Assembly: GCF_030532915.1 (NCBI RefSeq)
Contig: NZ_JAUNKD010000002.1
Span: forward strand, 62,001-126,000
Direction: 5' to 3'
Origin: Capnocytophaga sp.
Lineage (GTDB): Bacteria > Bacteroidota > Bacteroidia > Flavobacteriales > Flavobacteriaceae
DNA: 64,000 nt
Positions 53,078-62,440 of the stretch are shown piece after piece; the first letter of the stretch is position 1; every line of letters starts with the position of its first letter. The notes under the pieces were generated by a model, which worked only from the letters and a program-made list of their open reading frames with translations, did not search any database and was not told the origin of the DNA. The position numbers and the translations under genes were made by a program.

Positions 53078-53089
53078 GAATTCTTTTTA

Positions 53090-53163
53090 GGCTGCGTAGT
53101 TCAACTGGATAGAATATCAGATTTCGGCTCTGAGGGTTGGGGGTTCGAATCCCTCCGCGGTCA
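53090..53163 (+). tRNA. tRNA-Arg (anticodon UCG)
   Basis: 74 nt fold as a cloverleaf: acceptor GGCTGCG with CGCGGTC (two G-U pairs), D-stem GTTC/GAAT, anticodon stem TCAGA/TCTGA with loop TTTCGGC (anticodon TCG), variable loop GGGTT, T-stem GGGGG/CCCTC with loop TTCGAAT, and discriminator A. CCA is not encoded. A tyrosine recombinase gene follows, so its 3' end is probably the attachment site of the element. Confidence 0.9.
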
Positions 53164-53178
53164 CAAGGAACATATTTT

Positions 53179-53223
53179 TGGCTCAATAAACTTAGTAATT
53201 AACTGATTTATTGAGCCATTTTT
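53179..53223 (+). terminator. Terminator after tRNA-Arg
   Basis: Perfect 12-bp stem TGGCTCAATAAA (53179-53190) with TTTATTGAGCCA (53207-53218), then five T. Confidence 0.8.
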
Positions 53224-53235
53224 AAAAACAAAAAA

Positions 53236-53281
53236 GTGGCTCTTGCCACAAAACTTGCCACAAAAATTTTTCTTGTGGCAA
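53236..53281. repeat. GCCAC repeats between tRNA and integrase gene
   Basis: CTTGCCACAAAA is repeated in tandem at 53242-53253 and 53254-53265. TTGTGGCAA in inverse orientation is at 53273-53281, and GTGGC at 53236-53240. Such short repeats next to a recombinase gene are candidates for arm-type integrase binding sites. Confidence 0.5.
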
Positions 53282-53382
53282 ACGTTAAAAATGGTTTCAA
53301 TTTTTCAAAAACATTTGAAAAAATGAAACACCAATTCTTTGTTGACACGAAAGGGTTACAGCTGGTTAAAAAGTTAGTAACT

Positions 53383-54492
53383 ATGAATGTCAAAATTTAC
53401 CGCCGTGATTATGTGAACAAACACGGCTTGTTCCCCATTTATCTATTGATTACCTCACAAGGCAAACGCATTCGTGAGCGGTTGGGTGTGGAAGTTCGTC
53501 CCGAAGACTGGGACGAAAAAAACGGCAGACTCAAAAAGTCCGCCCAAAATGCGGTCGAATACAATCTGATTATCGACAACGTTTTGAAGAAAATCACCCA
53601 TATCCGAACCGAATATCACCTGAATGACAAAGCCTTAACGTTGGAAAAATTGGTCGAAGAATACAACAACGCTTCGTCCAACACTTGTTTTGTTGCCTTT
53701 ATGGAAAAATACGTAGAGCAGCAGAACATCAAACCCGGTTCCCTTCGGAAAGAAAAATCACGCATCGCCAAAATCAAGCGTTTTCAAAAGGAAATTCCCT
53801 TTTCGCAAATCACCATTGAGTGGGTAGAACGCTACAAAAACTATATGGCAAAGGAATGTAAAAACAACGCCAATACGATTGATTCCAACCTAAAAACGCT
53901 TAAAAAATACTTACATATCGCTGAAAAATACGGCATTCGGCTCAATTTGGATACGGACGATATAAAAACCCGCACCCACCGAAGCAACCGCGTGAATTTG
54001 AGTTTCGCCGAATTGGACAAACTCAAAGAGTTCTATTTTTCAAGCTATATCAATCCGCGGTTAAAATTGCCGTTGGGATATTTCCTATTTTCCTGTTATA
54101 CAGGGCTTCGAATCAACGAAGTTAAAAAATTGAAGCGGGAAACTATCGGCAAAACCATTACCTTTACGTCCGATAAAACAAGCAAAACTAATACCATTCC
54201 GCTCAATAATTCGGCTCGGAGCTTCGTGGAGCATTATCCCGATTTGTTCGTCAAATGGATTTCTGAACAGAAGATGAACGATTACATCCGTGAGGCGGTC
54301 AATATTGTCGGTATCCGCAAGCGTGTGAGCTTTCATACGGCACGCCACACCTTTGCTACCAACTATTTACGTAAAGGCGGAAAGGTCGAGGATTTGCAGA
54401 AATTCCTTGACCATTCAGACATTTCCACGACAATGATTTACGTCCATATCATTGAAAAAGAGCAAATAAACGTGTCGTTGCTGGACGATTAA
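53383..54492 (+). CDS. Tyrosine recombinase / integrase
   Basis: 369 aa from the ATG at 53383 (MNVKIYRRDYVNKHGLFPIY), the usual start of the Bacteroidetes phage-integrase SAM-like group; ATGs at 53323 and codons further up lie in the repeat region. Arm-binding domain to about residue 75, SAM-like core-binding domain (about 90-190), catalytic domain with R in TGLRINEVKKL, HxxR in HTARHTFAT, then LDHSDISTTMIYVH with the nucleophilic Tyr. It would integrate and excise the element at tRNA-Arg. Its stop overlaps the convergent DUF6712 gene by 4 nt. Confidence 0.92.
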   Translation: MNVKIYRRDYVNKHGLFPIYLLITSQGKRIRERLGVEVRPEDWDEKNGRLKKSAQNAVEYNLIIDNVLKKITHIRTEYHLNDKALTLEKLVEEYNNASSNTCFVAFMEKYVEQQNIKPGSLRKEKSRIAKIKRFQKEIPFSQITIEWVERYKNYMAKECKNNANTIDSNLKTLKKYLHIAEKYGIRLNLDTDDIKTRTHRSNRVNLSFAELDKLKEFYFSSYINPRLKLPLGYFLFSCYTGLRINEVKKLKRETIGKTITFTSDKTSKTNTIPLNNSARSFVEHYPDLFVKWISEQKMNDYIREAVNIVGIRKRVSFHTARHTFATNYLRKGGKVEDLQKFLDHSDISTTMIYVHIIEKEQINVSLLDD

Positions 54493-55376
54493 AAATACAA
54501 CCCACTTTTTTTAGCAATCACCGCCCTTGGTTCGATTTCTGTTTTGGCAAAACACGGAAATTCATCGGGGCTGTTTTTCAGTAGCGTAAGCAAACTTTCG
54601 GTGTATTGCTTGGCTTTTGAAAGAAATTCCGCTCGCAAATGCAACAAGTCGTTTTGCTCCAACAATTGTGATTTTTGCCACGGCAATTGCTCCCACTGAA
54701 TGACGATTGCCGACTTGGTAAAGGTCAGTCCTGCCGTCAAAATGGCATCGGCAAGGGTGTAGTAAGCCGTTATTTTCTTTAAGAAAAACAGCGCTTTCTC
54801 ATTGGTTTTCAAGTTTTCAAGCGTGCAATTGGGCAACTGATTGGCTAAATACAAATGCCACACATCGTCCATCAACGGAATGAGCTTCAAAAACACCTCG
54901 TACGAATCGCCAATGGGGTAAATCTTTGAAAATTCAAAGGGCGAAGCAAATAGCGTACGTTGTATTTCGTTGTAAATCGGCAACTTATCTTTGAGTTCCG
55001 ACTGTTGCAACTCAAAAACGGCATCGTTCAAGGCTCGGTCGCCAATGGCAATGGCATTCAGCCCGTAATCCCGAATGTCCCACCAAGGCGACCGCTCCGT
55101 TTTGCCGTCTGAAAACGTATTTGTTCCCGTATTGGAAAGGTGCATTTTCAAAAACGGAATCGACAAGGCAACCGCGTAATTGGCTGTGGCTCTTTTTATC
55201 CGCTCCCAAACAGAAGGGGCTTGCTTGTCGTCTGTGAGCAAGGAAAGTATTTCCTTCCCTACGAAAGGCAAAATCTTATCACTTAAAGCCTGCTCAATAT
55301 ATGGCTTTAATGTCTTAATATCCAATTGTTTGGATACATTAATATGGGCTTTTATTTCGTCTATATTGTCAAACAT
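54489..55376 (-). CDS. DUF6712 family phage structural protein
   Basis: 295 aa. The pattern LKPYIEQALSDKILPFVGKE, RIKRATANYAVALSIPFLKM and DRALNDAVFELQ matches DUF6712, a protein of Bacteroidetes prophages and probably a head-tail adaptor or completion protein (role inferred from gene order in such phages). It looks complete. It is the last gene of the minus-strand block and meets the integrase gene tail to tail. Confidence 0.7.
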   Translation of the reverse strand: MFDNIDEIKAHINVSKQLDIKTLKPYIEQALSDKILPFVGKEILSLLTDDKQAPSVWERIKRATANYAVALSIPFLKMHLSNTGTNTFSDGKTERSPWWDIRDYGLNAIAIGDRALNDAVFELQQSELKDKLPIYNEIQRTLFASPFEFSKIYPIGDSYEVFLKLIPLMDDVWHLYLANQLPNCTLENLKTNEKALFFLKKITAYYTLADAILTAGLTFTKSAIVIQWEQLPWQKSQLLEQNDLLHLRAEFLSKAKQYTESLLTLLKNSPDEFPCFAKTEIEPRAVIAKKSGLYF

Positions 55377-55411
55377 AATGTAATGGATTATTTTTTTGAC
55401 AAAATACGGAA

Positions 55412-55436
55412 ATAAAAAAAGTCCCCGAAAGGACTT
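55412..55436 (-). terminator. Short terminator after the two-TM gene
   Basis: AAGTCC (55419-55424) pairs with GGACTT (55431-55436); A run on the plus strand gives a T run on the minus strand. Confidence 0.6.
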
Positions 55437-55452
55437 GTTTTTTTATTTGAAT

Positions 55453-55803
55453 TTATTTTTTGTTCCTGTAGTAATGTGTATAAAAATGTCCTCGAAGAAC
55501 GATAAAGGTAAGTCCCAGTACGTTTAATGTTGTTGTACCAAGCAAAGTAATCAGGACACTATCGGACAAATGCAAAAAGCAATGATTCAATATCAATATC
55601 GTCAAAACAAACCCCAACCACACCGAAACCGTACATACAGCCCATTTAGCCAACCACTTTCGATCTTTTGTATCGGAATTATAACGAACAGCTTCAAGTT
55701 TTTTGATTTGTAAGTTTAATTCACCGGAGTCGATATCTAAATCTGGGTCAGAATCTCCTCTTTTTTCTTTTTTATCGAAAATATCAGATAAATTCTTCTC
55801 CAT
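55453..55803 (-). CDS. Two-TM membrane protein beside a Panacea antitoxin, candidate toxin
   Basis: 116 aa. An acidic, charged N-terminus (KKEKRGDSDPDLDIDSGE) is followed by two hydrophobic helices (WAVCTVSVWLGFVLTILIL and SVLITLLGTTTLNVLGLTFI) and a short basic tail. No named family. It starts 2 nt after the Panacea-domain gene, so the two are surely co-transcribed. Panacea (PanA) antitoxins pair with many unrelated toxins, including membrane-active ones; this makes the protein a candidate toxin. An alternative is an unrelated membrane protein. Confidence 0.6.
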   Translation of the reverse strand: MEKNLSDIFDKKEKRGDSDPDLDIDSGELNLQIKKLEAVRYNSDTKDRKWLAKWAVCTVSVWLGFVLTILILNHCFLHLSDSVLITLLGTTTLNVLGLTFIVLRGHFYTHYYRNKK

Positions 55804-55805
55804 GC

Positions 55806-56267
55806 CTAAATATTAATTTCTGAAAAATATTGTTTTATATATTCATTCTTTATAGGCATATTCCAATTAAAACCCTCTTCTTTGGTAGTTTTATACCAAG
55901 GTCCCCCTTCTGTATGTGACCAATCAGAAAGTGTTGTAGCCGAATATTTAGCATATTTCTCTATAATTGAAGTCATAACGTTCACCAAATTTTCATCCTT
56001 GACAATTTCTTGAAATTCAGGATTATTCTTGTCATAAACTTTACCAAAGTTCACTTTTTTTCGTGTTTTTGGAAAAACAGGACCAAATGGCCAGGCTTTC
56101 GGGCTTTCATCAAAAATAACAACATCTGCTTTTGCTAAAAAATACCCGTAAACGATATACATCAACTTCTGTACTTTTGTTACATTCAACACATACCCCT
56201 TCTCGTTAGCTAACGCCAACATCAACTTGGCACTCAATATGCTACTATGTATTTTTGAAGTACCCAT
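55806..56267 (-). CDS. Panacea-domain (SocA-like, DUF4065) antitoxin
   Basis: 153 aa from the ATG at 56267, chosen because a perfect AGGAGG lies 8 nt upstream (56276-56281); an ATG seven codons up lacks this. The Panacea/DUF4065 motifs are plain: KVQKLMYIVYGYFLAKAD, ESPKAWPFGPVFP and TLSDWSHTEGGPWY. The domain neutralises diverse toxins in PanAT systems, and SocA in Caulobacter is an adaptor for a toxin's proteolysis. It sits between a 71-aa gene and a two-TM gene in a short phage-borne operon. Confidence 0.85.
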   Translation of the reverse strand: MGTSKIHSSILSAKLMLALANEKGYVLNVTKVQKLMYIVYGYFLAKADVVIFDESPKAWPFGPVFPKTRKKVNFGKVYDKNNPEFQEIVKDENLVNVMTSIIEKYAKYSATTLSDWSHTEGGPWYKTTKEEGFNWNMPIKNEYIKQYFSEINI

Positions 56268-56275
56268 TTTATTAT

Positions 56276-56281
56276 CCTCCT
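56276..56281 (-). promoter_or_regulatory. Strong Shine-Dalgarno AGGAGG for the Panacea gene
   Basis: AGGAGG on the minus strand, 8 nt before the ATG at 56267. Bacteroidetes genes seldom carry a full Shine-Dalgarno, so it both fixes the start and hints at foreign origin. Confidence 0.7.
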
Positions 56282-56284
56282 CTC

Positions 56285-56500
56285 TCATATTAGGAAGGGC
56301 AAAAAGTGTGCCAATACTATCGTTTCTACTTCAATAACTCCAAATCCTTTTTTACCTAATTTTGCAGGAATGACTTTTACATTCGTGATTTCCTCTTTAT
56401 TTTTTTTGAAAAACTTCAAATATTTTTGAGGATTGTAAAATACCTTTTTATCAGTAATTAATGGATAATCAATCACTTGCTTGTTGTTTTTTACATTCAT
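56285..56500 (-). CDS. Small protein upstream of the Panacea gene
   Basis: 71 aa, basic, no membrane segment except a weakly hydrophobic end (TIVLAHFLPFLI). It starts 29 nt after a TACCTTTG box (56529-56536) and ends 17 nt before the Panacea ATG. Not recognised. It could be a third member of the putative toxin-antitoxin operon. Confidence 0.5.
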   Translation of the reverse strand: MNVKNNKQVIDYPLITDKKVFYNPQKYLKFFKKNKEEITNVKVIPAKLGKKGFGVIEVETIVLAHFLPFLI

Positions 56501-56528
56501 ATTAATATTGATATAGCCACAGATACTG

Positions 56529-56536
56529 CAAAGGTA
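56529..56536 (-). promoter_or_regulatory. -7 box of the Panacea operon
   Basis: TACCTTTG on the minus strand, 29 nt before the ATG at 56500. The -33 TTG is not at standard spacing. Confidence 0.4.
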
Positions 56537-56636
56537 TGAAAAAAATACAAATGTCCGACACTTTGATTGACAAAATTATATTTTTGGCTTTTGACTGATA
56601 GCTTTTAGCCAATGGCTATTCGCTAATCGCTATCCG

Positions 56637-57344
56637 CTAATTCACAATTGTTTGCTGTCCGTTTGGGTTTTTATCCAACGTGGTTAAATTGATGTTCGGG
56701 AAATTGCCGTATAGTGTAGGGTCCCAATTGTTCCAATCGCGGATACGCTCAAAAATTTCAAGGGTACGAATCCGACGAATGGGCATCCGCGTGCTTAAAA
56801 TGGTGTATGCCTCCCGCTTGTCCGACCCCGCTCCGTTCAGCCCGCCGCCCGAACCGCCCGGAATACCCGCGCCGAGCAGACAAGGGTCTACGCCCATCGG
56901 AAACAAAATTTCCGAGTTCCCCGCCGTGGCATCGGGCAAAAAACTACCGTCTTTAATTTTATCGTCAATCGGCACAACCTCAATGCCTTTGATAAGATTG
57001 CCGTTCTGGTCTCGGAAGAAAGGCGAAATCAGCGACCGCCCCGCACTCTCGTTCCCGCTCATATGCTTGTCGATGGCATCAACCGTATTTTTGCGGTACT
57101 GTTCCTTTTCCGAAGCCGAAAATTCCCGCCATTCTTCCACGCCGTATTTATGCACGAAAAAATCATCGGCGATATACACCACAAACTTTACATTTAGCTG
57201 ATTTTCATACATATACTTTTTGAAAACGGGAACGGAAAGCACCACGTCCATCCAACCGTTGTGAAACGAACTGTGCCATTTTATCCTCGGATAATTCTTC
57301 TCGGCACCTATTTTAAAAATCATTTCTACCCAAAAATTGTTCAT
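56637..57344 (-). CDS. Phage portal-like protein, probably N-terminally truncated
   Basis: 235 aa. The stretch SEILFPMGVDPCLLGAGIPG followed by GSDKREAYTILSTRMPIRRI and RIRDWNNWDP looks like the C-terminal half of portal-type proteins in Bacteroidetes prophages. Such proteins are about twice this length, so the N-terminal half seems lost. The ATG at 57344 is preceded by a TACCTTTG box (57362-57369), so it could still be expressed. Codons are more GC-rich than in the Panacea operon next to it. Family assignment is by resemblance only. Confidence 0.4.
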   Translation of the reverse strand: MNNFWVEMIFKIGAEKNYPRIKWHSSFHNGWMDVVLSVPVFKKYMYENQLNVKFVVYIADDFFVHKYGVEEWREFSASEKEQYRKNTVDAIDKHMSGNESAGRSLISPFFRDQNGNLIKGIEVVPIDDKIKDGSFLPDATAGNSEILFPMGVDPCLLGAGIPGGSGGGLNGAGSDKREAYTILSTRMPIRRIRTLEIFERIRDWNNWDPTLYGNFPNINLTTLDKNPNGQQTIVN

Positions 57345-57361
57345 ACCTTTTATTTTTTTCG

Positions 57362-57369
57362 CAAAGGTA
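57362..57369 (-). promoter_or_regulatory. -7 box before the portal-like gene
   Basis: TACCTTTG on the minus strand, 17 nt before the ATG at 57344; the nearest TTTG is 26 nt upstream, a little far. Confidence 0.3.
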
Positions 57370-57414
57370 TCGCATTAATAAAATTAGTTAAAGGACAAAT
57401 GTTTTACAGATTGG

Positions 57415-57444
57415 AATAAAAAAGCCCGCTGAAAATCAGCGGGC
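57415..57444 (-). terminator. Terminator of hicAB
   Basis: GCCCGCTGA (57424-57432) with TCAGCGGGC (57436-57444), 3-nt loop; on the minus strand a T run follows (A run at 57418-57423). Confidence 0.85.
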
Positions 57445-57468
57445 GGGGTGTTGAAACTAATAGAAAGT

Positions 57469-57846
57469 TTATGTTAAATCAATGGTGGCAAGTTCACTAC
57501 CATACGATTTAATGCCTTGAAATATTTTTTGTACTTGTTTTTCTGACGGATATTTTTTTCGGTTTTTGTATTGTGAAATCAATGAATTGCTAATCCCTAT
57601 TCTTTTACTCAACGCAAAGATGTTGATGCCGTTATAGTATTCAAAAAACTGTGCTAAATCGAACTTAATCACAATGTCTTTTTCAGTAGCCAAAGGCTTG
57701 TCTTCGTATTCTAATAATAAATTTAACGCTTCAAGCATATTCTCTTTTAGTTCGGCATACGTATCGCCAACAGTGGTTACGTTTGCGTTTTCGGCATACG
57801 CTGAATACCCCGTATTTGTTTTTTCTACGATGAATGTTGTTTTCAT
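57469..57846 (-). CDS. hicB: HicB antitoxin with HTH domain
   Basis: 125 aa. Residues 1-60 are the partial-RNase-H-like HicB fold (IVEKTNTGYSAYAENANVTT, GDTYAELKENMLEAL). Residues about 75-120 are a XRE-type helix-turn-helix (FALSKRIGISNSLISQYK). It would bind HicA and repress the operon at the paired palindromes near 58.1 kb. It is the second gene, 27 nt after hicA, with a clean terminator. Confidence 0.9.
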   Translation of the reverse strand: MKTTFIVEKTNTGYSAYAENANVTTVGDTYAELKENMLEALNLLLEYEDKPLATEKDIVIKFDLAQFFEYYNGINIFALSKRIGISNSLISQYKNRKKYPSEKQVQKIFQGIKSYGSELATIDLT

Positions 57847-57873
57847 ATATTTAATTTTTAAACTATTAGGGGA

Positions 57874-58062
57874 TTATTCCCCTAATAGTGTTTTTCTGAT
57901 TTTAATTACCAATCCTGTACCTATTTCTTTGCTTGGATGTATCGGCACAACGCAGGTTTCTTCGGTTATCGGGCTATACCATATTTGGTGACTTCCCTTA
58001 CCTTTGCGAAGTGGGTAACATCCGGCTTTTTTCAGGATTTTCAATAATTCATTAGTTTTCAT
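57874..58062 (-). CDS. hicA: HicA toxin (mRNA interferase)
   Basis: 62 aa, normal length. The double-stranded-RNA-binding-like fold is recognisable from ELLKILKKAGCYPLRKGKGS, the catalytic His at residue 25 (GSHQIWY) and VVPIHPSKEIGTGLVIKI. HicA cleaves mRNA and arrests growth. It is intact. Its start overlaps the stop of the broken tape measure frame by 4 nt. Confidence 0.9.
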   Translation of the reverse strand: MKTNELLKILKKAGCYPLRKGKGSHQIWYSPITEETCVVPIHPSKEIGTGLVIKIRKTLLGE

Positions 58063-61000
58063 AGAACGAATCTATTAAATTTCAACAGGGCAAAGGTAAA
58101 AAATATTTTACTTATATACAAGTTTTTGAGTAAAAAATATTTTACTTTTTTCAAAAAAATGCCCGTCGGTGCCAATTGTTTTTGAGCTTGGAACGATTCC
58201 AAACTGGTTTGTAAGATTTCTTTATCGGCTTCTTTGCGTAGGGCTTTTTTGGCGTCTTCTAATGTTTTGATTTGCGCCAGTTCGCGCTCGCTCAGCTTGC
58301 CTCGCAGGGCTTCTTTTGCCGAATCTAAATCGTTGATAAGCAAGATTTCTTCGGCTTTTTCACGCTTTTTGATGTCGATACAGTCGTTGTACTCTTTAAG
58401 CGTACGCTCCACCTCCTTAACGCGGTGCTTCTCACGGACTTGTTCTAATTCTGCCGCCTTTTGTTTTTCAAGCTGAATTTCGATTTGGTTGTTAAGTAAA
58501 ATGAGTGGCTTTTTTTCTTCGATGATTTTTTTATAAATGGCAATAGCCCTTTTGGCATCGGCTTTTTCTTCAGCAGACGTTTCTGGGTCGGCGATCTTTT
58601 CGTTTGCTTCCCGAATTTTCTTGTTTAAATCTCTGATTTCGTTGGTAATATCTTCTTTTTCGTGTTTCAGGGTAAGTTTCTTACGTTCGTATTTGGTCTC
58701 TACTGCTGACAACTGTTTGTCGAGGCTCTCTTTCAAAATGACGGTTTCCTCGTCCTCCAATTCTTGTTGTTTTTTGATAAAATCACGTTGAGCCTTTAAC
58801 AAATCTTTTTGGGCTTGCCCATAGAGGTCGCCCGTGTATTTTTTAGGTTTTTTAGAGTCATCGTCAGTTGTAAGTTTGGGAGTACCATACACTGTTACAC
58901 CTTCTTCAAAATTTACTTCTTGGCTGTCTCGGGAATTCAAATCTGCATTAACATTTAATAAATCTGTTAGTTTTTGATTTTCAGTTTTATAAACATCTCT
59001 TGCTTCTATATATTCTCCGATGGCACTTCGTATGGCTACCAGCAAATGTTCTCTCTTCTTTATTTCGGGGTTATCACGTAAAATTTTATATTGCTCAACA
59101 GCCGATTTACCCTCTAAATTTAATTTTGCCACATACGAATTCGAATTACGTAATTTATTGATTTCTTGTTGAATTTGCTTTTCTTTTGCTTCCATTTTGG
59201 CTTGTGCCTCACCCGTTACGGAGGATTGCGTTTCTATGAGTCCTTCATTGGCTTTCAAACGTGCTTTTATAACAAGTTGTTTATTTACCGAGTCAAGTTT
59301 ATCTGCCAATTCTTTGGTTAATTTTCCTTCATTTTCAACATTTTTTAAATAATCAGGGTATTTTTCTTTTAGTTTATCAATCAGGTCTTTACGTTTTTCA
59401 AGCGGAATATTATTATCGGCTATCATTTTACGCAATGTGTTCAGTTGTGTGATTTCTTGATTGATAGAATTTATAACCTCTTTGTTGGCTTGGGTTACTT
59501 CGTTTTGTTTTTTTGAAAACAACGATATAGCTGTTATTGCGGTGGTTACGGCTCCGATGAATAACCCCAACGGATTCATTTTTGTAGCCATATTAAAAAG
59601 TCGTATGGCTTGTGTGGCTTTAGCTGTGTTTCCTGCCAAATGATACTTTGCGGCGGCATACAATAAAACAATACCGCGCTTGGCAGCCATTAGCACGCCT
59701 TGTGCCTTTATCACCACGTTATAAAGAACCGTTTGTTTCCAAGCCTCCTTGGTGCTGGTAGTTACCAACCAAACAGCAGCACGGTATGAAAGGAATGCCG
59801 TTGTAGCTACGGTTAAAAGTTTTACCAAAAAAGCCAAGCGCTCCCTAAATGTTTTTATCCCGTTTCCGGCTTCGTTAAATACACCCGTAATTTTACCTGC
59901 AATGCCCGTTATCCAATTGAAAAAATCAGGAACAACCCCGTCAGTAACAAACTCTCGAAATCCTCTACCGATTTTTTCCCAAATAGCGGCAGCATTGTTA
60001 TTCTTTTTGTTGAATTCTTCTTGAATAGATGTGGCTTCTTCCATAGCTTTACTTGAAAGTTCCATCAATTCACGGAAACGGGCAGCGTTGTCGCCTGCCG
60101 CACCTAAGGCTTTTTGCACTTCAAGCGTATTGAGTTTCAATCCTTTCAGCACATTTGCAGACTGATTCCCTGAAAGCCCTTTCATACTTTCGGCAAATTT
60201 CAAGAAAAATTCTTCGGGCTTGGTGTTGAACAGTTCTTGTGCCTCTTCTTTGGTGATTTTCATCTGCTTAGCGAAACCATCCAGATTGTTACCTGCTACG
60301 GACACAAATCGACTGAAACCGGAAGCTGCAATTTCGGCATCAATCCCGCTTTCTTCAAAGGCAGCCCCCAATCCGAGCGTTTTGTCAATGGCGGGTTTTA
60401 AGGCTCCCGGTAATTGTCCTACACGGGTAGTAAATTCGGTAATATTTCCTTCTGATGACGAACCATTTGCCCCTAATTCATTCAAAGCGGAACCAATTTC
60501 ATTGAGCGCCGTTGGGTAATCGCTGTCTTTGGTCTGGTCAAATAGGTTTTTAAGTTTACCTACTTTGGTGGTAACCTCTTCCAAACCGCCTTGGAACGAA
60601 TCACCCAGAGCTACGTAAATCTTGTCAATTTCGCGGGTAAATTCTTGTAATTGCTCTTTATCGGTAATGCCTAACCGCCCTCCGATTTGGGCGATGTTCA
60701 TTAAATCTAAGCGTTTAGTTCGGGTATCAAAGTTTCCAAATTCATTCCAAAGGGCTTCGACTTCTTTTTGAGCCAAGCCCGAAGTTTTTTGAACATCGGT
60801 GATAGCATCGGAGATTTCCAAAAGACGGTCAGTGGTTTCTCTGATTGTGTGCCAACCTGCTCTCAACCCTTCAAAAGACAACAATCCCGTTAAAACATTG
60901 GTTCTGTTAAAAAATGAAGAAAAAGAATTGCCGCTCCTTTCAAGTTCACGAGTAGTGGCGTTGATTTCATTTCGTACGTTTTCAAAGGCTTGACGGGCTC

Positions 61001-61166
61001 TTTTTACCTGTTCGGCTTTGTCAATAAACTCTTGTGTGCCAGGTTTGAGTCTACGCAGTTCGGCTTCCAGTTTGCGAGTGGTTGCCTGTAAATCTCTAAA
61101 TGTATTCTGCACCTGCTGACCGTTGATAATCAGTACGCCCTTAGTGGTAATTGTATTTTGTGCCAT
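58059..61166 (-). CDS. Phage tail tape measure protein, 3' end disrupted
   Basis: 1035 aa. The N-terminal coiled coil (LQATTRKLEAELRRLKPG), a TP901-type core (FDTRTKRLDLMNIAQIGGRL, ALNELGANGSSSEGN, LKGLKLNTLEVQKALGAAGD), hydrophobic helices about 440-560 and a long helical tail are typical of tape measure proteins. From about residue 1003 the sequence turns into a Phe/Lys/Leu run (FLKKVKYFLLKN...) that is the reverse reading of the hicAB promoter and operators. So the true C-terminus has been lost where hicAB joins, and the protein is probably non-functional. ATG at 61166. Confidence 0.85.
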   Translation of the reverse strand: MAQNTITTKGVLIINGQQVQNTFRDLQATTRKLEAELRRLKPGTQEFIDKAEQVKRARQAFENVRNEINATTRELERSGNSFSSFFNRTNVLTGLLSFEGLRAGWHTIRETTDRLLEISDAITDVQKTSGLAQKEVEALWNEFGNFDTRTKRLDLMNIAQIGGRLGITDKEQLQEFTREIDKIYVALGDSFQGGLEEVTTKVGKLKNLFDQTKDSDYPTALNEIGSALNELGANGSSSEGNITEFTTRVGQLPGALKPAIDKTLGLGAAFEESGIDAEIAASGFSRFVSVAGNNLDGFAKQMKITKEEAQELFNTKPEEFFLKFAESMKGLSGNQSANVLKGLKLNTLEVQKALGAAGDNAARFRELMELSSKAMEEATSIQEEFNKKNNNAAAIWEKIGRGFREFVTDGVVPDFFNWITGIAGKITGVFNEAGNGIKTFRERLAFLVKLLTVATTAFLSYRAAVWLVTTSTKEAWKQTVLYNVVIKAQGVLMAAKRGIVLLYAAAKYHLAGNTAKATQAIRLFNMATKMNPLGLFIGAVTTAITAISLFSKKQNEVTQANKEVINSINQEITQLNTLRKMIADNNIPLEKRKDLIDKLKEKYPDYLKNVENEGKLTKELADKLDSVNKQLVIKARLKANEGLIETQSSVTGEAQAKMEAKEKQIQQEINKLRNSNSYVAKLNLEGKSAVEQYKILRDNPEIKKREHLLVAIRSAIGEYIEARDVYKTENQKLTDLLNVNADLNSRDSQEVNFEEGVTVYGTPKLTTDDDSKKPKKYTGDLYGQAQKDLLKAQRDFIKKQQELEDEETVILKESLDKQLSAVETKYERKKLTLKHEKEDITNEIRDLNKKIREANEKIADPETSAEEKADAKRAIAIYKKIIEEKKPLILLNNQIEIQLEKQKAAELEQVREKHRVKEVERTLKEYNDCIDIKKREKAEEILLINDLDSAKEALRGKLSERELAQIKTLEDAKKALRKEADKEILQTSLESFQAQKQLAPTGIFLKKVKYFLLKNLYISKIFFTFALLKFNRFVL
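58091..58121 (-). promoter_or_regulatory. Promoter of hicAB
   Basis: Minus strand TTG (58119-58121), 20-nt gap, TACCTTTG (58091-58098), 29 nt before the hicA ATG. Confidence 0.65.
58096..58145. promoter_or_regulatory. Paired operator palindromes for HicB
   Basis: The 16-bp near-palindrome GTAAAAAATATTTTAC occurs twice, at 58096-58111 and 58130-58145, 34 bp apart. The first touches the -7 box and the second lies just behind the -33 region, as expected for HTH-type HicB autorepression. Confidence 0.7.
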
Positions 61167-61213
61167 AAAAAAAATCGAATTGACACAGCAAAATTCTGTG
61201 TTAATTCGATTTT
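61167..61213 (-). terminator. Long hairpin between the small phage gene and tape measure
   Basis: AAAATCGAATTGACACAG (61171-61188) pairs with CTGTGTTAATTCGATTTT (61196-61213, one wobble), with a T run on the minus strand directly before the tape measure ATG. It ends transcripts of the 61.2-62.2 kb genes. Confidence 0.75.
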
Positions 61214-61233
61214 TTCAAAGGACAACAAAAATG

Positions 61234-61458
61234 CTAATGAATGTTTGCTTTTTTATCAAGAAGTTTTTGACGTTCTCTCTTGAATTTTCGGTGGTTGCGA
61301 ACTTCAAACTCTACAATAACATACACAATCCACAGCACAATAGCACCTACTATAATGTACCAATATTGAAATAGATGCCAAACAATACCAGCAAGAAGAG
61401 AAACAAAAACAACGATTACGCCCCAAATAAAACTACCTAAACTATTGGAATTTTCCAT
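61234..61458 (-). CDS. Small two-TM phage-region protein
   Basis: 74 aa from the ATG at 61458. Two hydrophobic helices (FIWGVIVVFVSLLAGIV and YWYIIVGAIVLWIVYVIV) and a basic tail (RNHRKFKRERQKLLDKK). Not recognised; holin-like size and topology, but position before the tape measure is unusual for a holin. Confidence 0.5.
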   Translation of the reverse strand: MENSNSLGSFIWGVIVVFVSLLAGIVWHLFQYWYIIVGAIVLWIVYVIVEFEVRNHRKFKRERQKLLDKKANIH

Positions 61459-61482
61459 AACTAACAATTTTACGTTACAAAA

Positions 61483-61737
61483 TTACATTTTTTTGAATAA
61501 AAACCAAAGATACAAGCCTTGTTTTTCGTCAATGCCGTATTGAAAGCCAGTTTCTTTCAAAGCGTCAAAAATGTCGTGTTCGTCAATTGGGCTTTGCGGA
61601 ATAACGCCTCGCACCATTTGAAGCACATCAATCGTGGATTTTAAAACAACATCTTGTATGCTCTTATCCGGACGGATAGCTCGTGGGCTAAAATCCCGAA
61701 GCAACATTTCTTTTATCAATGCTTTATAGTCTTCCAT
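61483..61737 (-). CDS. Small phage-region protein
   Basis: 84 aa from the ATG at 61737; a GTG one codon upstream is also possible. Acidic C-terminal half with DEHDIFDALKETGFQYGIDE, a pattern seen in small proteins of Bacteroidetes mobile elements. Function unknown. Its ATG overlaps the previous stop (TGATG), so translation is coupled. Confidence 0.6.
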   Translation of the reverse strand: MEDYKALIKEMLLRDFSPRAIRPDKSIQDVVLKSTIDVLQMVRGVIPQSPIDEHDIFDALKETGFQYGIDEKQGLYLWFLFKKM

Positions 61738-61973
61738 CACGATTCGGGTTTAAAGGTTTTTAAATCACTACGAAGCACACAGATGAAACGAATAAACTCC
61801 ATTGCTTGATTTTCCGTGCCGTTGCTCAATGAGGCATCGCTCAAAAAAGTGGTTAAATCACTCAAAATCTCAAGGGTTTCCGCCAAATGAATGCCCTCGT
61901 CTTCTTGCCAATGCTGTAACATTTTCAGTGAACTTTCGGTGAGTGTTACATTGTTGATGTCGATTGTTTTCAT
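61737..61973 (-). CDS. Small phage-region protein
   Basis: 78 aa from the ATG at 61973 (MKTIDINNVTLTESSL). Helical and acidic (WQEDEGIHLAETLEILSDL). Placed between two coupled genes and upstream of the tape measure, where tail-assembly chaperones often lie, but no slippery site was seen. Overlaps the previous gene by 4 nt (ATGA). Confidence 0.6.
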   Translation of the reverse strand: MKTIDINNVTLTESSLKMLQHWQEDEGIHLAETLEILSDLTTFLSDASLSNGTENQAMEFIRFICVLRSDLKTFKPES

Positions 61974-62236
61974 AAGGCAACGGATTTTGAAGTTAGACAA
62001 TCCGACTTGGCAGTCAAGTTAATAAGTGCGTGAGCCAATGTTTTGCCCTGAGCCTGAACTTTTTCGTGACCGCACGAAAATGATAAACGCCACGCTCCCT
62101 TGCTGAATTTCATTGTAAGCGTACCGGGGTACTCATTTAAAAATTTAGAAAACAAGGTGTTCGCGTACGCCTCACGTAAACGTGCCAAATAACGTTTGCG
62201 GATAACTTTTTTTTGGTTTTCTTGAGGTTTTAACAT
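61970..62236 (-). CDS. Small basic phage-region protein
   Basis: 88 aa from the ATG at 62236 (MLKPQENQKKVIRKRYLARL); the frame extends 23 codons further into the structured leader, which is not plausible coding. Basic N-terminus, Cys in SFSCGHEKV. Not recognised. The first gene after the structured element at 62241-62385; its start codon region (TGTTAAAACCTC) is complementary to part of that element. Confidence 0.55.
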   Translation of the reverse strand: MLKPQENQKKVIRKRYLARLREAYANTLFSKFLNEYPGTLTMKFSKGAWRLSFSCGHEKVQAQGKTLAHALINLTAKSDCLTSKSVAL

Positions 62237-62240
62237 AACT

Positions 62241-62385
62241 AAAAAAATTAAAAAGGCGTAAGTAGGTGCTGTTAAAACCTCGTGATTTACGAAATTGCAT
62301 AACATTACTATTATGCGACACCCTTACGCCTGTAAATTTATATTTTTATTTGATATACAGATACAAAAATCTGCACGAGGTTTTA
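62241..62385 (-). ncRNA. Structured leader or small RNA with interleaved stems and terminator
   Basis: Minus-strand transcript expected from the promoter at 62392-62421. Helix 1: CTGTTAAAACCTCGTG (62389-62374) with CACGAGGTTTTAACAG (62284-62269), 16 of 16. Helix 2: AGGCGTAAG (62331-62323) with CTTACGCCT (62262-62254), followed by a T-rich run, a terminator shape, extended inside by GGTG/CACC. Helix 3: GCATAA/TTATGC (62316-62297) inside helix 2. Helix 1 and helix 2 interleave, so together they would make a pseudoknot or compete. No known RNA family recognised. Confidence 0.5.
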
Positions 62386-62391
62386 ACAGTG

Positions 62392-62421
62392 CAAAGATAC
62401 AATAAAAAATAAAACCTGCAA
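62392..62421 (-). promoter_or_regulatory. Promoter of the structured leader
   Basis: Minus strand TTG (62419-62421), 19-nt gap, TATCTTTG (62392-62399). Transcription would start at or just inside the first repeat arm. The -33 lies within the preceding gene's terminator hairpin. Confidence 0.6.
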
Positions 62422-62440
62422 ATTATTTGCAGGTTTTATT
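62408..62440 (-). terminator. Terminator of the secreted-protein gene
   Basis: AATAAAACCTGCAAAT (62408-62423) with its full complement at 62425-62440; T-rich on the minus strand after the stem. Confidence 0.85.

Follow-up and report, generated by a model that had tools for sequence, protein, structure and literature searches.

A predicted leader RNA with a variable 12-nt antisense block in Capnocytophaga genomes and Riemerella phages

What kind of element arises when a long inverted repeat is interleaved with a second stem directly behind a promoter? This question is raised by the window, the 64,000-nt stretch of a Capnocytophaga sp. contig that was analysed here. Near its end, a 16/16 inverted repeat (62269-62284/62374-62389, spacing 89 nt) follows a promoter, and a 9-bp stem, GGCGTAAG/CTTACGCC, which leads into a T run, sits inside and across this repeat. 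This arrangement had been described correctly in an earlier, sequence-only reading, which proposed a structured regulatory RNA or attenuator and, as another possibility, an invertible segment of about 90 bp. The RNA lies on the minus strand. With A and B denoting the repeat arms and P3 the interleaved stem, the basic order from 5' to 3' is promoter, A, P3 5' strand, B, P3 3' strand, and U run; in full, it is promoter, A, P2, AU-rich linker, P3 5' strand, P4, P5, B, P3 3' strand, U-rich tail, and the ATG at 62236 (Table 1). Since A:B and P3 interleave, they would together form an H-type pseudoknot. A third partner, C, had been overlooked. It repeats A in direct orientation and lies 153 nt downstream of it, at the ORF1 start codon, which gives B two complementary partners. 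Of these, it is C that points to a target and a mechanism.

Table 1 Predicted elements of the RNA and downstream genes, given in window positions
Feature	Position	Strand	Remarks
Predicted promoter	62392..62421	-	TTG (62421-62419), spacer of 19 nt, TATCTTTG (62399-62392)
A, copy of the target at the 5' end	62374..62388	-	12-mer 62388-62377 plus 3 nt lengthening the pairing with B
P2 hairpin	62355..62376	-	GTGCAGAT(TTTTGT)ATCTGTAT
P3, 5' strand	62319..62330	-	GGCGTAAGGGTG
P4 hairpin	62297..62316	-	GCATAA(TAGTAATG)TTATGC
P5 hairpin	62277..62295	-	immediately 5' of antisense segment B; in the window extends into B
B, antisense arm	62270..62284	-	12-mer 62281-62270 pairs with A and C; additional 62284-62282 with A only
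P3, 3' strand	62255..62268	-	CACC-TA-CTTACGCC
U-rich tail after P3	62241..62254	-	presumed terminator tail or AU-rich translation leader
C, putative target at the start of ORF1	62224..62236	-	ATG 62236-62234; target 12-mer 62235-62224
ORF1, putatively controlled gene	61970..62236	-	88 aa; 53% identical over 77 aa to ORF1 of CcC29b
ORF2, ORF3, ORF4, small	61234..61973	-	no confident family; ATG of ORF2 overlaps the stop codon of ORF1
Tail tape-measure protein	58059..61166	-	downstream of ORF1-ORF4, same direction

In the 2.66-Mb assembly of the same genome, the 12-mer TGTTAAAACCTC has three exact copies, A, C and, in complementary form, B; there is no fourth. If one mismatch is allowed, 30 matches including the three exact ones are obtained, compared to 27 for a reversed control pattern. 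The predicted promoter fits the Bacteroidota consensus. It is abutted by a 16-bp hairpin with a T-rich tail (62408-62440), likely the terminator of the upstream minus-strand gene, and the promoter TTG falls within the 3' arm of this hairpin.

Folding and covariation, two of the checks suggested in the sequence-only reading, were both in favor of a structured RNA. The 139-nt RNA folds at -40.5 kcal/mol, while shuffled sequences reach -22.0 on average (z -5.3) and none of 200 was as good. In an alignment of 23 sequences, which was fitted to the model and thereby favors a covariation signal, 14 of the 18 pairs of P3 and P4 show changes on both sides; 0 of 500 shuffles were as good, and sliding the partners against each other abolished the signal. 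A MAFFT alignment of eight sequences agrees, with nine of the 18 pairs changed on both sides. P4 is paired in 100% of the alignment cells and exhibits such changes in five of six pairs, and one P3 pair next to a conserved bulge is unpaired in 15 of the 23 sequences. As judged from these comparisons, P3 and P4, together with P2 and, in most units, P5, constitute a structured core that carries the 12-nt block of B beside P3. Termination at P3 is presumed from the appearance of the stem, its loop being too large for the terminator scan. Searches of Rfam yielded no match for the window RNA. The proposal of a structured RNA is supported with respect to P3, P4, the covariation of A with B and the novelty with regard to Rfam, and had to be extended by C.

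Related units were detected in Capnocytophaga genomes, in phages of Riemerella, and in a few genomes of a second family. By Blast, similar DNA was found in 12 phage records, 11 of them from Riemerella phages, and with another query in 19 records, 18 of them from Riemerella phages. Similar DNA was also detected within the genus of the window, where most of the 50 of 100 genomes listed show short, weak matches only. With a covariance model of P3 and P4 built from eight sequences, R1, 13 loci were accepted within the genus, distributed over seven of the 20 genomes searched. In searches over more than 40 genomes, for which stricter filters were applied so that diverged members may be missed, R1 gave no hit outside the genus when 397 genomes of the family were scanned, and a scan of 395 genomes from the order added G681, which harbors two tandem units; a second model, R2, revealed units in four of 320 genomes of the family of G681, whereas 395 genomes sampled across the phylum yielded hits only in the window's own genome. 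A strict core pattern matched no stretch in IMG/VR and four in genome contigs, all of them known units. With a looser pattern, 92 stretches were obtained from IMG/VR, all of which were scanned with R1, and three contigs were found to hold units (L155, L158, and L164; L158 was treated as the same as G681:C22). The plasmid collection gave no match at an E value of 1e-3. Two candidates, L035 (G018) and L064 (G515), were dropped, as they looked coding-like by eye and neither a promoter nor A and B could be seen. The phage stretches examined carry no annotated RNA feature, the record of phage GRAP2 being devoid of any annotation. Record OQ791282.1 bears the name Shigella phage Henu10, but its sequence at the two unit loci matches that of Riemerella phages; the host label looks doubtful. 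For further comparisons, 25 units were tabulated, 22 of which are distinct.

The layout of these units is largely constant. The motif TAnnTTTG is present in all 25, and in all 25 A begins exactly 3 nt downstream of it; TTG is located 22-23 nt upstream of the motif in 24 of 25 units, G002 being the exception. If transcription starts where this conserved promoter-like sequence predicts, the RNA begins with A. The P2 stem begins at position 13-14 of A in 18 of the 22 distinct units. P5 ends exactly at the start of the 12-mer in ten of 22 and overlaps B in some others, and the best P5 that could be found was computed to be unstable in four. In many units, then, the scaffold appears to be arranged so that a single block of 12 nt stays free, whereas in the minimum free energy fold of the window P5 runs into the 12-nt block of B.

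Comparison of the blocks among each other revealed that A, B and C vary together from phage to phage in the units compared. With G-U allowed, all 11 positions compared between B and C are paired in 22 of 25 units, which are the units considered to have a cognate C. Among the 19 distinct units with C, pairing is found in 19 of 19 at each of positions 1 to 12, in six at position 13 and in one at position 14. Non-cognate pairing over 19 distinct B/C combinations, including two without cognate C, averages 7.35 of 11 with a maximum of 10, and the observed sum was reached in none of 100000 permutations. Cognate A:B pairing averages 13.9 of 14 compared to 8.8 for the other combinations, and again none of 100000 permutations was as high. 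Seven later loci, which were found by a model containing neither A nor C, all show 14/14 pairing of A with B and 12/12 pairing of B with C (G-U allowed), and two of them (L187 and L188) bring previously unseen 12-mers; since several of the seven are close to tabulated units of Riemerella phages, they do not represent seven independent events. Altogether, 20 versions of the B 12-mer were counted, and 17 of these belong to units with cognate C. Any two versions differ at one to ten positions, with a median of four, indicating that the specificities are not all well separated; some non-cognate A:B pairings reach 14/14, and some non-cognate duplexes were computed to be nearly as strong as cognate ones. 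The pattern has its irregularities. Position 1 of A is mismatched in eight of the 22 distinct units, and an extra base in A of G001C96 breaks the register of A:B, B:C being intact. Cognate C is absent from three of the 25 units, all of which keep A:B: in G002 and G014, the ORF found at the usual distance lacks a matching start, and in CcC23 no ORF begins close to the unit. The genomes of these three contain no exact target other than A and B.

Two explanations at the level of DNA had to be considered in the light of these data. A, B and C might be operators of a phage repressor whose specificity differs from phage to phage. A lies at the predicted start site, the repeats occur in direct and inverted orientation, and phage operators do diversify. 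This explanation is nevertheless very improbable, because G-U wobbles take the place of identity: in VR155, A and C each deviate from the perfect complement of B by one G-U, at different positions, and G-U pairs are found within A:B in CcC23, G012, and VR164. In addition, B is surrounded by covarying RNA helices, the A:B duplex extends 3 nt past the shared 12-mer, and inspection of the neighbouring genes by eye brought up no repressor gene shared by the units. Even harder to accept is the invertible segment between the 16-bp repeats. The perfect repeat in the window and an integrase gene about 8 kb away would suit it, but the arms differ among units, some being broken by wobbles or a bulge, and no inverted form was encountered in the 25 units or the seven further loci, although the search model, which needs P3 in its present orientation, would tend to miss inverted forms.

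Which genes are preceded by the units? In the window, the operon consists of ORF1-ORF4 followed by the tape-measure gene, with no recognised antirepressor. ORF1 did not match any entry of Pfam or PHROG up to an E value of 0.1, and no relatives of its protein could be confirmed in IMG/VR. By Pfam or record annotation, an antirepressor gene follows ORF1 in ten of the 25 units and is itself ORF1 in one more (11/25); for the other 14, none was recognised among the neighbours searched, and most of the Capnocytophaga operons belong to this group. In seven units of Riemerella phages (both units of PT03, those of CRP5, CRP34, CRP19, and PJA1, and the second unit of CRP12), ORF1 specifies 106-130 aa and the antirepressor starts 2 nt past its stop codon. 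PT03 and CRP12 contain two units each, one near NinG and one at most about 2-3 kb away from a tape-measure gene. AntA and KilAC were assigned by Pfam behind the first unit of PT03 and those of CRP5 and PJA1. The same combination is present in G681b, Rha with KilAC in G012, and AntA in CcC17, while in VR164 C directly opens a KilA-N+KilAC gene. In the Riemerella phage GRAP2 (L183), the unit is not followed by an antirepressor gene, and a gene for a WYL_2 protein is fused to the leader codons.

Nearly identical ORF1 proteins were found together with different 12-mers. Identities are 96% for CRP34 and PT03a, 93% for CRP5 and PT03a, and 99% over 126 aa for PJA1 and PT03b; in these Riemerella phages, the variable ORF1 codons precede the near-constant residues TAPTANNSSEVQ. 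By this comparison, the 12-nt address is swapped and the ORF1 protein stays. In tandem arrangements (L063; L189/L191), the first unit is followed by an ORF of 31-36 aa only, and the second by a full ORF1 and an antirepressor-like gene. The orphan unit of G1008 shares its 12-mer with the second unit of PT03.

From these observations it appears likely that the units specify a phage-encoded antisense leader RNA or attenuator, which represses the operon it precedes. The inferred sequence of events, from the transcript over its termination and processing to repression in trans and immunity, would be the following. Many transcripts would stop at P3 and the U run, giving an RNA of about 140 nt or a shorter one lacking A. 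When free of A, B would pair with C, either in cis, within the read-through transcript that carries both, or in trans, on transcripts made from a further copy of the same phage. The B:C duplex would block translation initiation of ORF1 and, by translational coupling, that of the closely spaced or overlapping next gene. Where the latter is an antirepressor gene, the lysogen would be kept dormant and incoming phages with the same 12-mer would be silenced, while phages with another 12-mer would escape. In the window, the same device is located ahead of a small-ORF/tape-measure segment of a prophage remnant. The role of A needs special attention. Computed energies are -17.5 to -25 kcal/mol for A:B and -14.6 to -17.2 kcal/mol for B:C in cognate units, so that in the full-length RNA B should be inaccessible as long as A is neither removed nor occupied. 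A could be a built-in decoy and likely a switch; for B to act, it would have to be cleaved off, occupied or kinetically late, or else the default state would be "on".

A strictly cis-acting attenuator would account for part of these features. Here, the A:B pseudoknot together with P3 would terminate transcription, an alternative arrangement involving B:C or P2/P5 would let polymerase or ribosome pass, and a free antisense RNA would be irrelevant. The retention of A:B even in the three units without C, the placement of P3 and the U-rich tail between leader and gene, and the positions at which P2 starts and P5 ends, by which A:B beyond position 12 competes with both hairpins, are all consistent with such a device. 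It would, however, need no variety of 12-mers, their diversification fitting better to interactions between copies, and the tandem units of G681 and G1008 with ORFs of 31-36 aa fit a role in trans. We regard an attenuator acting only in cis as rather improbable.

The antisense leader RNA preferred here has its closest likeness in a few enterobacterial elements, P1, P7, P4, and Gifsy-1, for which antisense phage control of this layout is described. As with c4 of P1 and P7, the proposed antisense RNA is encoded in the leader of its own target operon and would be directed against a translation start, a small first ORF is followed by an antirepressor gene (in ten of 25 units, mostly of the AntA type, and not in the window), and specificity differs between relatives, as in the heteroimmunity of P1 and P7. 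c4 has two complementary regions; the comparison of B with C, which covered a single block, identified one that ends after 12 nt. The additional target copy A at the 5' end and the P3 stem with its U run are differences. The organisation of the P1 immI operon is c4-icd-ant in the excerpts of PMC8198154 and PMC12197685. In the excerpted text of Weinberg 2010 (PMC2864571), c4 is given for Proteobacteria and phages only, whereas the units described here belong to another bacterial group, the Bacteroidota. The covariance model RF01695 (c4) matched neither the window up to an E value of 10 nor six homologous loci up to an E value of 5.

The CI leader of P4 resembles the units in another respect, the order A-B-C within one leader, in which B is complementary to the upstream A and the downstream C. 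The middle segment of the P4 CI leader is named seqB. According to excerpts of PMC4825925, one segment of that leader pairs with seqA upstream and seqC downstream. Here, C is located at a start codon, which is a difference, and the likeness is drawn from layout. The mature CI RNA of P4 is made by processing and causes premature termination, whereas premature termination is for the units a presumed step. For Gifsy-1, the same excerpts describe IsrK-orf45-anrP, with a short leader RNA, a read-through mRNA and a small ORF translationally coupled to the antirepressor gene anrP. The likeness is again one of layout, and the direction of control differs, since IsrK activates and repression is proposed for the Bacteroidota RNA. 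The units might nevertheless operate in the IsrK mode, with B:C as the default "off" state and a short A-bearing RNA titrating B to switch translation on. A, which duplicates C, would form the free 5' end, and a short RNA activating its own read-through mRNA has a precedent in IsrK (excerpts of PMC4825925). In the units, however, A and B share one short RNA, so that A would be self-occupied, and activation of this kind is considered unlikely. On the best reading, the RNA works like c4 and CI, yet is filed as neither. Word searches of the open-access literature revealed no report of an RNA at these loci, and the paper on phage RAP44 (PMC9745183) contains no mention of an antirepressor, a small RNA, immunity or KilAC.

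Such an RNA would be a Bacteroidota counterpart of these enterobacterial systems, with no detectable relation to the c4 family of Rfam. Its specificity would be reduced to one 12-nt block, exchanged by natural isolates with nearly the same protein kept, which would allow immunity groups to be predicted from sequence and put to a direct test. About 19 sender/receiver RNA pairs of graded orthogonality would be available from nature, 17 with cognate C and two from the later loci. If true, phage genes would be under a swappable RNA lock, among them, in some phages, the gene that switches the phage out of dormancy. A wider proposal is tentative and, in our estimate, doubtful. It holds that the units are a new family of Flavobacteriales phage RNAs providing modular immunity, with a fixed scaffold, an exchangeable 12-nt antisense address, the same address in target codons 1-5, and a decoy copy. 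Units without a working gene, i.e. the tandem short-ORF units of G681 and G1008 as well as CcC23, would then be free-standing address cassettes silencing the antirepressors of other phages.

The region from 53090 to 62440 of the window is a prophage remnant, which begins with a tRNA and a tyrosine integrase (53236-54492). It further includes genes for a DUF6712 protein (54489-55376), a SocA/Panacea-type protein (55806-56288), and HicA (57874-58062), the latter with a HicB-like partner recognised by eye (57469-57846). No att repeat was apparent, as 53081-53300 and 58000-76000 share no word of at least 13 bases. Pairs resembling toxin-antitoxin systems (PIN, RelE-like, HicAB; by eye) are located directly upstream of the units at several Capnocytophaga loci, L078, L080, L083, L028, L084, and L026.
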